From the NCBI RefSeq assembly GCF_012933465.1, contig NZ_JABBND010000002.1, positions 1-64,000 of the forward strand: 64,000 bases of DNA, written 5' to 3'. The notes below the pieces were generated by a model, which saw only the letters and a list, made by a program, of their open reading frames with translations, made no database searches and had not been told where the DNA came from. A program made the position numbers and the translations under genes. The DNA comes from Actinomycetospora sp. TBRC 11914 (lineage in GTDB: Bacteria; Actinomycetota; Actinomycetes; Mycobacteriales; Pseudonocardiaceae). Below, piece by piece: positions 34,720 to 44,781 of this stretch (its first letter is position 1; each line of letters starts with the position of its first letter).

Positions 34720-34793
34720 CGGGACGTGGCGCAGCTTGGTAGCGCACTTGACTGGGGGTCAAGGGGTCGCAGGTTCAAATCCTGTCGTCCCGA
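34720..34793 (+). tRNA. tRNA-Pro(GGG)
   Basis: The 74-nt cloverleaf has acceptor CGGGACG/CGTCCCG, D-stem GCGC/GCGC, anticodon stem CTTGA/TCAAG around the loop CTGGGGG (anticodon GGG), T-arm with loop TTCAAAT and discriminator A. No CCA is encoded. Its 3' half is duplicated at 44745, marking it as the integration site of the following island. Confidence 0.95.
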
Positions 34794-34794
34794 C
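34758..34794 (+). repeat. attL: 37-bp direct repeat at the tRNA-Pro 3' end
   Basis: The 37 bases from the anticodon stem to one base past the discriminator (gtcaaggggtcgcag...cgtcccgac) recur identically at 44745-44781. Overlap with a tRNA 3' end is the classic attachment site of tyrosine-integrase elements. The left copy completes the functional tRNA. Confidence 0.9.
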
Positions 34795-34873
34795 GCAGCT
34801 CACAGGCCGATGGATCTCCGTTGGCCTGTGAGCGTGACATCACACGTGGTGCGAGAGGCGCTAGCCTCCCCTC

Positions 34874-35101
34874 ATGCCCACGGAGCAGGCTGCTCGTCGC
34901 CGCCAACGAGGCACGATCACGACGTTGCCCAGCGGGGCGCTCAGAGTCCGCGTCTACGCCGGTCTCGACCCTGTGACACAGCGGCGTCACTACCTCGCGG
35001 AGACCGTGCCTGCCGGGTCCGGCGCCGCGGCCCAGGCAGAGAAGGTCCGGACTCGCCTCCTCGCTGACGTCGAAAAGCTCCACGCCCCCGTGACCGCGTG
35101 A
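34874..35101 (+). pseudogene. Truncated tyrosine integrase, N-terminal arm-binding domain
   Basis: The 75-residue open frame (QRGTITTLPSGALRVRVYAG, then DPVTQRRHYLAETVPAG and AEKVRTRLLADVEKL) matches the N-terminal arm-type DNA-binding domain of actinobacterial phage/ICE integrases, which are normally 350-450 residues. The core-binding and catalytic domains with the R-H-R-Y residues are gone, and the frame ends at 35101. Location next to attL is where the integrase of such an element belongs. Confidence 0.75.
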
Positions 35102-35143
35102 ACTCAGCAACCCGACTCCACCAGACCCGGGGCACATCAAGCC

Positions 35144-35168
35144 TCTCCGGACTCGCCGGGGCGGTTCA
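35144..35168 (+). repeat. 25-bp inner direct repeat, left copy
   Basis: Twenty-five bases (tctccggactcgcc...cggttca) recur exactly at 44349-44373. The copy's last three bases are the stop codon of the transporter gene read on the minus strand. Together the two copies bracket all the cargo inside the outer att repeats. Confidence 0.8.
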
Positions 35169-35882
35169 GCCGGGCTGCTCCTCACGGGATGGGAGGTCAC
35201 CGAGCGGCACGACTTGTCGCCCGTAGCTGTGCCTACTCAAGCCGGCGGCGGCCAGGTGGAGCGCTTGGACGGCGAGGAGGATGCCGGTGATTCCACCTAT
35301 TCGTATGAGGACGGTGTGCGCGCCGCCGTTCCCGGCGCCGAGGACGATCAAGGTCACCACGAGATTGCCGAGCGCGAGCACCGTCGCCCGGTTGGTACGC
35401 AGGGAGGCGAGGAGGAACGTGGCGGCGACAACTGCGAACGTGTACAGCAGCAGGGCGGTGGCCTCGCCGCGTTGAGCGCTGGGAACGTCGGCTGAAAACC
35501 ATTCCAGATACGCGGCCAGCAGCAGCCAGAGGCTGGCAAACGTGGAGAACATGGCGCCGTTGAGGGTGTCGCCGTTGCTTACCTGGATGAGTCCGCCGAC
35601 GAGTTGGGTGAACCCGGCGAAGATCAGCCCGGTGCTGATGACCACCGGTAACACCGACTGCGAGACCCCACCGGCGTTGATGAGGCTGAACATGAAGGTC
35701 ACGACGGCGAAAGCGAGCAAACACAACGGGGTCGCGTCAACAGCTCGTGCGGCGGGCGTCGAGGTCCTCGCTGCTGCAGTCGCGATTCCGGTATCGCTGG
35801 GCACCGCCGTCGGAGAATCATCGTCGGTCGGGCTTGATTCAAGAGTGCCGTGACCGACCCGCGCCTCAGGCTGAGTCTGCAT
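35166..35882 (-). CDS. SatP/GPR1-FUN34-YaaH family acetate/succinate transporter
   Basis: The 238-residue membrane protein has six hydrophobic segments. The first reads ATPLCLLAFAVVTFMFSLINA; family members start with a comparable NPAPLGL-type helix and have an Asn-Ala pair. These proteins move acetate, succinate or related small carboxylates with protons. The first 55 residues are a Thr/Ala-rich cytoplasmic leader. GGAAGG precedes the ATG. It is the last gene of a minus-strand set with fumarase and a malic-type enzyme, pointing to C2/C4 acid metabolism. Confidence 0.72.
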   Translation of the reverse strand: MQTQPEARVGHGTLESSPTDDDSPTAVPSDTGIATAAARTSTPAARAVDATPLCLLAFAVVTFMFSLINAGGVSQSVLPVVISTGLIFAGFTQLVGGLIQVSNGDTLNGAMFSTFASLWLLLAAYLEWFSADVPSAQRGEATALLLYTFAVVAATFLLASLRTNRATVLALGNLVVTLIVLGAGNGGAHTVLIRIGGITGILLAVQALHLAAAGLSRHSYGRQVVPLGDLPSREEQPG

Positions 35883-43015: not shown

Positions 43016-43067
43016 GCCCGATGCGCTCGGGGTGCGACCATCGTTGATGACCTGCCGAGCGTGGTCC

Positions 43068-43105
43068 GGCGCCCTCACCCGCAGGGACCTGCGCGTGAGG
43101 GCGCC
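43068..43105. terminator. Bidirectional hairpin terminator
   Basis: GGCGCCCTCAC pairs perfectly with GTGAGGGCGCC, and an inner CGCAG/CTGCG stem closes on the loop GGAC. The 38-base two-part hairpin sits exactly between the convergent TetR and hydrolase genes, so it should stop transcription from both sides. Confidence 0.75.
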
Positions 43106-43129
43106 GATGTCACTGGTGCGGCGCCGCCG

Positions 43130-43954
43130 TCACTCTCGGATGAACGCCAGTAGGTCTGCGTTGATCGTCTCGGCGTGGGTGGTCGGCATGCCGTGGGGGA
43201 ATCCCGCGTAGGTCTTGAGGACTCCGTTCTTCAGCAGGGCAACGGCTCGGGGCCCGGAGCTCTCGTACGGGACGATCTGGTCGCCGTCACCGTTCATGAC
43301 CAGGACCGGAACCGAGATCCGCTCAAGGTCGTCGCTGAAGTCCTCGCGGATGAAGGCGTTGACGCATTCGTACTGGCCGTGCGCCCCGCCCATCATCCCC
43401 TGGCGCCACCAATTCGCGATGACGGCCTCCGAAGCCTCCACATCCGGCTTGTTGAAGTTGTAGAACGGCCCTGCCGGCACCTCGCGGTAGAACTCGGACC
43501 TGTTGGCCGCCAGCCCCTGCTGAAGGCCTTCGAAACCAGCCAACGGCGTACCGGCCGGGTTGGCTTCGGTCTGCAGCACCGAGGGGGTCACCGCGCTCAT
43601 CAACACGGCCTTCGCGACACGCTCCTCCCCGTGGCGTCCGAGGTAACGCGCAACCTCACCACCACCGGCGGAATGCCCGACGTGGACCGCTTCGCGCAGG
43701 TCGAGATGCTGCACCAGTTCGGCGAGATCGTCGGCGTAATGATCCATGTCGTTGCCCTGCGTCGGCTGGGAGGACCGCCCGTGCCCACGCCTGTCATGAG
43801 CGACAACTCGGTAACCGTGGTGCAGAAAGAACATCATCTGCGCGTCCCAGTCATCCGAGGACAGAGGCCAACCATGGCTGAAGACAATCGGCTGCCCGAT
43901 GCCCCAGTCCTTGTAGAAGATCGATGTTCCATCGGTTGTCGTGAATTCGGGCAT
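43130..43954 (-). CDS. Alpha/beta hydrolase, non-heme haloperoxidase/esterase type
   Basis: The 274-residue enzyme is close to the cofactor-free bromo/chloroperoxidase-esterase group. It has an oxyanion-hole motif FSHGWPLSSDDWD, the nucleophile Ser in VGHSAGGGEV near residue 97, the acid in MNGDGDQIVP and the final His in FPHGMPTTH. HDRRGHGRSSQP is typical. These enzymes act mainly as esterases; haloperoxidation is a side activity. It is an isolated gene in the island. Confidence 0.88.
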   Translation of the reverse strand: MPEFTTTDGTSIFYKDWGIGQPIVFSHGWPLSSDDWDAQMMFFLHHGYRVVAHDRRGHGRSSQPTQGNDMDHYADDLAELVQHLDLREAVHVGHSAGGGEVARYLGRHGEERVAKAVLMSAVTPSVLQTEANPAGTPLAGFEGLQQGLAANRSEFYREVPAGPFYNFNKPDVEASEAVIANWWRQGMMGGAHGQYECVNAFIREDFSDDLERISVPVLVMNGDGDQIVPYESSGPRAVALLKNGVLKTYAGFPHGMPTTHAETINADLLAFIRE

Positions 43955-44744
43955 CGCAACCTCGCCTCGCTCGCTCGGGTGGACGGCAGGCCGGACGCCG
44001 TGCACGCCCGGCCCGAGTAGCTGTAAGCACTCCGACTTGACGGGCCGTGGACAGGTTGTGGAGTGAGACGCCTGCCAACCGCACGGGCGGCTCCGCGGGC
44101 AGCGCCGCCACCGGCGGCTCGCCGAGCGCGTCGCACACCTCCACGGGCACCGGACGCAACGGCGGCCGCGGCGGCACTGGGGCCACGGGGCGGACGGCGC
44201 CGGCGAGGGCGGTCTGGAGGGTCCGGCGGAACAGGGGCCGGGGATGCCCTCGAGATGGTCAGTGGCCGAGGGCGCGCAGCCTGTCCTGGGCCACCTCGAC
44301 GCGCCCGGTGGACGACGTGACATGACCAGATCTCCTCAGACGGTCTGGTCTCCGGACTCGCCGGGGCGGTTCAACTCTTCCGGCCTAGGGCCGCGAGCCC
44401 GGATCAGCGGTTGAAGCGCACCCAGCTCTCAGCCCGATGCTTGCCAGGTCATCGCTCCGCAATAGGAGCGCCGGAGATGAGCCGACCTCCGTCGGGCGGA
44501 CGGGCGAGGCCGGCGACGGTCGACGATGTGGAGCGGGTCGGGGACGCGCCGCCGATTAACCCTGGCAGGCGGACCGCTCCTCAGCCCACGCGACGAGGTC
44601 AAGGAGTGGCTGGGCCCGCATGCCGTGGTACGGATCGTGGTGCGAACGACCGACTACGAGCGGCTCCTGGAGGACCTTGAAGACACTCGAGCGACACCAC
44701 AGGCCCTGGTAGAAGCTGTAGGACACGCCGTCCGACACTCTGGC
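43955..44744. other. Gene-poor right end of the island
   Basis: No convincing gene fills this 790-bp stretch. It holds the right 25-bp inner repeat and an inverted repeat GACCAGA/TCTGGTC (44324-44350). A plus-strand frame at about 44580-44728 contains RTTDYERLLEDLEDTRATPQ, which faintly recalls the C-terminus of Phd/YefM antitoxins; it has no start or partner toxin and I treat it at most as a relic. The remainder looks like eroded sequence. Confidence 0.4.
44349..44373 (+). repeat. 25-bp inner direct repeat, right copy
   Basis: Exact copy of 35144-35168. It lies about 370 bases inside attR, in a gene-free stretch, overlapping the right arm of a GACCAGA/TCTGGTC inverted repeat. Confidence 0.8.
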
Positions 44745-44781
44745 GTCAAGGGGTCGCAGGTTCAAATCCTGTCGTCCCGAC
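44745..44781 (+). repeat. attR: second copy of the tRNA-Pro 3' end
   Basis: Identical over 37 bases to 34758-34794. It lacks the 5' acceptor strand, D-arm and anticodon, so it is an attachment-site copy and not a tRNA gene. Confidence 0.9.

Follow-up and report, generated by a model that had tools for sequence, protein, structure and literature searches.

A decayed genomic island at tRNA-Pro(GGG) in Actinomycetospora that retains metabolic cargo and most likely lost its integrase to an IS3-family element

In the genome of Actinomycetospora sp. TBRC 11914, the 3' end of a proline tRNA gene is found a second time 9,987 bp downstream of the first, and metabolic genes lie between the two copies. 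This raises the question of whether the enclosed DNA is an integrative element, what became of its integrase and where its genes came from. We analysed the whole stretch of 64,000 nucleotides that contains this locus (hereafter the window) together with the genomes of 17 relatives. The tRNA-Pro(GGG) gene (34720-34794, forward strand), which we take as the integration target, was the sole tRNA called by ARAGORN in the window and was also matched by the Rfam tRNA model; in the Rfam scan of positions 34600-45200 it alone reached the threshold, with no other RNA. Its last 37 bases (34758-34794) form the left core (attL) and are repeated exactly on the same strand at 44745-44781, which constitutes the right core (attR). 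No match was expected from 100 shuffles, and the repeat reaches 40 bp when one mismatch is allowed. The exact repeat and its spacing, as proposed by an earlier sequence-only reading of this DNA, were therefore confirmed, and a copy of the tRNA 3' end is present at both edges as in tRNA-integrated genomic islands. The composition of the enclosed DNA is shifted as well: G+C content in 500-bp windows ranges from 62% to 73% in the island and from 69% to 80% in the flanks, two ranges that overlap, and eight island genes have a GC3 of 0.79-0.89, compared with 0.905-0.979 for three genes of the flanks. Given that the 3' ends of tRNAs are conserved and that many records contain pieces like this one, the second piece might represent a chance or unrelated duplication next to ancestral genes. 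This is extremely improbable given the exactness of the 37-bp repeat, the shifted G+C content and the absence of the cargo from the 17 relatives, and it is contradicted by the joined empty sites that we found in the genus.

Our genus set comprised 18 genomes, the one under study included. The tRNA-Pro(GGG) gene was located in 16 of the 17 relatives, the remaining one (G012) presenting a core copy without the tRNA. We built an empty-site probe of 214 bases by joining the flanks 34650-34794 and 44782-44850 and leaving out the island. Of the 16 relatives with a located tRNA-Pro, 10 (G002, G005, G006, G008, G009, G013, G014, G015, G016 and G017) gave an unbroken alignment of this probe over the junction, although in G017 the alignment crosses by only 22 bases. 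The empty tRNA-Pro site anticipated in sister genomes thus exists and joins at the repeat. The other six showed no alignment over the junction: the occupied left end was a better fit than the joined flanks in G001, G010 and G011 and a marginally better one in G004 (11 bases past the core), and both probes ended at the core in G003 and G007. A further core copy was present in the fetched DNA of three of the ten junction-spanning relatives (G006, G008 and G016), the other seven having none there. The two contrary outcomes named by the sequence-only reading, an empty site joined elsewhere than at the 37-bp repeat and the same gene content in all relatives, were not seen.

The sequences next to the two cores are consistent with such an insertion. 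A terminator-like hairpin lies directly behind the tRNA in the empty sites of relatives, and its homologue in the window is located behind the right repeat (44782-44841, forward strand; fold of -33.7 kcal/mol, z -4.8). Behind the tRNA itself we find another hairpin (34798-34833, forward strand; fold of 34795-34844, -34.2 kcal/mol, z -7.5), and similar hairpin-like sequences occur behind the tRNA in G010, G001 and G011. The element would have entered when a tyrosine recombinase recombined the tRNA-Pro 3' end carried by the element with the chromosomal tRNA-Pro(GGG). The insertion would have rebuilt the tRNA, which is now followed by a hairpin brought in by the element, and the native terminator would have come to lie on the far side of the right repeat.

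The sequence-only reading had also placed an integrase N-terminus, cut to 75 residues, inside attL. The corresponding ORF (34874-35101, forward strand) starts 80 bp inside the left repeat and alone yields no Pfam, NCBIfam or PHROG match. It is rightly called an integrase since it matches integrase N-termini in 11 of the 17 relatives (12 of the 18 genomes with its own counted; E up to 0.01), with 45-68% identity over the 12 loci aligned. G010, the closest relative when the left flanks are compared (87%), carries a complete tyrosine recombinase of 511 aa at the same place behind tRNA-Pro, whose N-terminus is 60-62% identical to the remnant. The remnant belongs to the family of this recombinase, which provides the complete integrase with a related N-terminus that had been suggested as a check. 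Other full relatives are found directly behind tRNA-Val, Ala, Glu, Lys, Thr and Arg genes. In a family-wide set, a tRNA in the same direction precedes the integrase match by 71-133 bp in 18 of the 20 loci fetched, and integrase relatives (E up to 1e-60) are present in 205 of 390 genomes of the bacterial family.

Between the cores, the metabolic cargo named by the sequence-only reading was recovered with Pfam and NCBIfam. On the reverse strand are encoded an acetate-transporter-family (GPR1/FUN34/YaaH) protein of 238 aa (35166-35882), a class II fumarase (36058-37518; Pfam and NCBIfam TIGR00979 above cut-off), a malic enzyme (oxaloacetate-decarboxylating malate dehydrogenase, 37515-39200), an SDR family oxidoreductase (39250-40116), a SARP/AfsR-type regulator with an NB-ARC-like domain (40418-42244) and an alpha/beta hydrolase (43130-43954), and a TetR-type regulator lies on the forward strand (42377-43015). 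This cargo is foreign and strain-variable. The island-type malic enzyme and fumarase were found in none of the 17 relatives. The genus's own fumarase is present in all 17 (44-47% identical to the island copy) and its own malic enzyme in 15 (41-44%), and the genome under study holds both genus-type enzymes beside the island copies. Malic enzymes close to that of the island (E up to 1e-180) were detected in 20 of 390 genomes of the bacterial family, this one included, and in 11 of its 46 genera.

We then compared the best 80 fumarase loci from named genomes among the matches listed. The arrangement SDR-malic enzyme-fumarase was found in the same order, with 81-86% identity, in four of them (Amycolatopsis rhizosphaerae, Streptomyces barringtoniae, Streptomyces sp. 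CB01580 and Actinacidiphila rubida), and no tRNA was called in these four loci. A YaaH-type transporter was matched in two of the best 80 loci (L185 and L170; 28-30% identity). The main cargo would accordingly be a horizontally travelling operon with an acetate-family transporter beside it, an origin that goes beyond the earlier reading. Judging from the protein families, the most likely role of the operon is to feed C4-dicarboxylates (from fumarate through malate to pyruvate, with NAD(P)H) alongside the housekeeping copies. We also observed that the operon recurs in scattered actinobacteria (L169, L170, L171, L185, L256 and L261). In L261 the SDR is 85% identical and the other two proteins are about 69% identical, which suggests that parts of the operon may have moved apart. 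A megablast search for the cargo on plasmids returned three records with partial matches, none covering 80%. The possibility of a defence island was also considered; PADLOC gave no hit for eight proteins, seven of them in the island.

Alternatively, the island could be what is left of an actinomycete integrative and conjugative element (AICE) or a prophage. AICEs of the pSAM2 type usually have a tyrosine integrase and sit in the 3' end of a tRNA gene, and related integrases use different tRNAs in these elements as they do here (PMC3218068, in its available parts). AICEs also carry transfer (FtsK-like) and replication genes with the integrase, and the island differs from those described there in that no transfer, replication or phage gene was recognised among the ORFs searched. 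The main ORFs showed no phage genes by Pfam, four small ORFs gave nothing of note against PHROGs, and a megablast search of phage records with the cargo found nothing close. This makes an AICE or prophage origin unlikely.

How the integrase came to be truncated is suggested by a feature that the earlier reading had not described. A 25-bp exact repeat at 35144-35168 (forward strand) and 44349-44373 corresponds to the terminal repeat of an IS3-family element. The right copy is part of a longer remnant on the reverse strand (44313-44373), which comprises the terminal repeat and the start of the first gene and is identical over 61 of 61 bases to the 5' end of an IS of G006. The stretch 44312-44373 shares 84% identity with an IS3 element from a plasmid of Pseudonocardia alni. 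The left repeat adjoins the truncation, between the integrase remnant and the cargo, and the stop codon of the transporter gene lies inside it. An IS3-family element is thus the most likely cause of the truncation, and it would have removed the integrase gene except for its first 75 codons after the element had been inserted. Overall, we consider it highly probable that an integrative element at tRNA-Pro left this island as its remnant, with the cargo kept and the integrase gene cut off, most likely by an IS3-family element.

IS3-like ends are, in fact, found at both edges of the cargo. It is therefore possible, if somewhat doubtful, that the island arose in two steps, with a small integrase element at tRNA-Pro into whose integrase gene an IS3-flanked cargo later landed. 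The presence of the operon elsewhere with no tRNA called nearby would fit this scenario, as would G010, which presents the same left end with other content. However, a single end is left of each IS, the two ends have the same orientation, no target duplication is visible, and G006 shares the right end yet carries different cargo.

Whether by one step or two, the decayed element at tRNA-Pro appears to be fixed. In the genome under study (assembly 97% complete) we found no full integrase of the remnant's family but only two distant integrases (30-32%), which supports the earlier view that the element is frozen with its cargo kept. The absence of a visible excisionase also held, as none was recognised among the listed island ORFs using Pfam, NCBIfam and PHROG. 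The island has probably lost the ability to move by itself, and excision in trans by an incoming related element is possible. Since the two att cores, the shared right end and intact cargo ORFs remain, we regard the island as fixed; only a related integrase acting in trans could release it. Loss of the integrase is an ordinary fate of islands inserted at tRNA genes, and cis-mobilizable elements (CIMEs) and decayed tRNA-borne genomic islands likewise have attL and attR flanks and no working integrase and keep their cargo genes. The present island resembles CIMEs in possessing both att sites without a functional integrase (75 aa, with no full member in its own genome) and differs in that its mobilisation in trans is only putative. 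It is therefore ordinary in kind, well supported and comparable to a cis-mobilizable element. No intact parent element with the island's cargo was found. The locus illustrates clearly how an integrative element can be left with its metabolic cargo once its integrase is gone, and a sister genome offers an intact relative of that integrase at the same tRNA.

The right end of the element (44624-44744, forward strand) is conserved in the genus. Positions 44624-44774 or parts of them match 12 other places: three in G012, two each in G004, G006 and G008, and one each in G007, G011 and G015. One of the G006 matches is located at the same tRNA-Pro. In 4 of the 10 right-end loci fetched (L142, L143, L144 and L146), the match continues into a core that, when compared by eye, is the same as the 3' end of tRNA-Val(TAC), or nearly so in L144 and L146. 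The Val and Pro cores have GGTCGCAGGTTC-N-AATCCTG in common, which might offer an easy way to switch target. At 44624-44643 we identified a tandem CGTGGTACGGATCGTGGTGC, the sole match of its pattern on both strands of the window; the motif is present at the corresponding place in 6 of the 10 right-end loci. It looks like a set of integrase arm sites. At the left end, CGTGGTGCGA (34845-34854, forward strand) may represent an arm-type site: the window contains exactly two copies, one per island end, a copy number that is not unusual (at least two copies in 18 of 100 shuffles).

The gap between the tRNA and the integrase gene presented a direct repeat at p < 0.05 in 25 of 28 related elements, 23 of them at period 12 and mostly with a GTGG-like core. 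These 28 elements are not independent because several are close relatives; L276 (the same element as L151), L277 (which starts inside the integrase gene) and L294 (no tRNA called) were left out of the count. The window's own left end has no significant tandem repeat (p 0.65), and arm sites are therefore seen only in the relatives and at the right end. ICEMlSym(R7A) with IntS and RdfS, as described in the available parts of PMC11963761, is similar in having repeated arm-type motifs on an att side with the integrase gene nearby; it differs in its motif and in its separate winged-helix directionality factor, and the arm sites of the island are putative. The shared right end and the tandem motifs at different tRNAs make both arm-site recognition and tRNA switching by this integrase family testable. 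Separately, in the gaps of L153, L279, L288, L291 and L293 the repeat motif was seen again in inverted orientation, ahead of the integrase start codon or overlapping it, as a possible operator with weak statistics. A palindrome over the start codon reached p < 0.05 in 7 of 29 elements (75-base ends) and at least two of these (L286 and L156) have it elsewhere, so that this pattern is suggestive at most.

An unexpected part of the analysis concerns the relatives of the integrase outside the window. A C-terminal GntR domain is fused to the recombinase in 8 of the 10 full integrases scanned, the two without it being tRNA-Thr integrases (L159 and L160). The GntR part was also aligned in all 20 family-wide loci, which were picked by score against a GntR-bearing query. 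Such fusions were observed directly behind tRNA genes in L105 (7875-9407), L149, L151-L155, L158 and L275-L294, and many of these loci have tandem 12-bp repeats before the integrase gene. The parts of PMC3218068 available mention GntR regulators as separate proteins of AICEs, in contrast to the fused domain of the island integrase's intact relatives, and the word GntR is absent from the main text of PMC8138268 as available. In the portion of the literature searched, we found no description of the island or of the fusion. If the fusion were a built-in regulator, it could account for the absence of a separate excisionase. One speculative scenario, to which we assign a low probability, is that these integrases are one-protein switches, in which an N-terminal arm-binding domain and a tyrosine-recombinase core are joined to a GntR winged helix that acts as their own repressor or directionality factor by reading the tandem 12-bp repeats between tRNA and integrase gene; the 75-aa stub could then retain arm-site binding and obstruct relatives at tRNA-Pro.

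Finally, the left flank is largely collinear in the relatives, several of which have extra genes before the tRNA. In the fetched relatives, the DNA immediately following the tRNA contained no match to the window beyond 44845; the sole match was 301 bases (70%) elsewhere in L107, which indicates that the outer right neighbourhood is variable. In G006, synteny returns on the same contig only at window positions 51702-57739, which indicates that the stretch between 44845 and 51702 is variable. A PucR-type regulator (45083-46507) within this variable part has its closest relatives elsewhere in the genus and paralogs in its own genome. G006 also carries a 3.4-kb segment at the same tRNA-Pro (L100, 6070-9558) that ends in a core copy and shares the right end (84%). 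Its cargo consists of a hydrolase, a molybdopterin oxidoreductase and a LysR regulator, with no integrase among the ORFs listed, and copies of the terminator lie behind both cores. In G003 (L097), the 56 bases from tRNA-Pro to the contig end resemble the sequence behind the tRNA-Val-like core of L142, a likeness that may stem from recombination of one site with the other or from an effect of assembly where the contig ends. In G016 (L111, 7833-8564), an ORF lies between two core copies, and its end resembles, by eye, a piece of a tyrosine recombinase.
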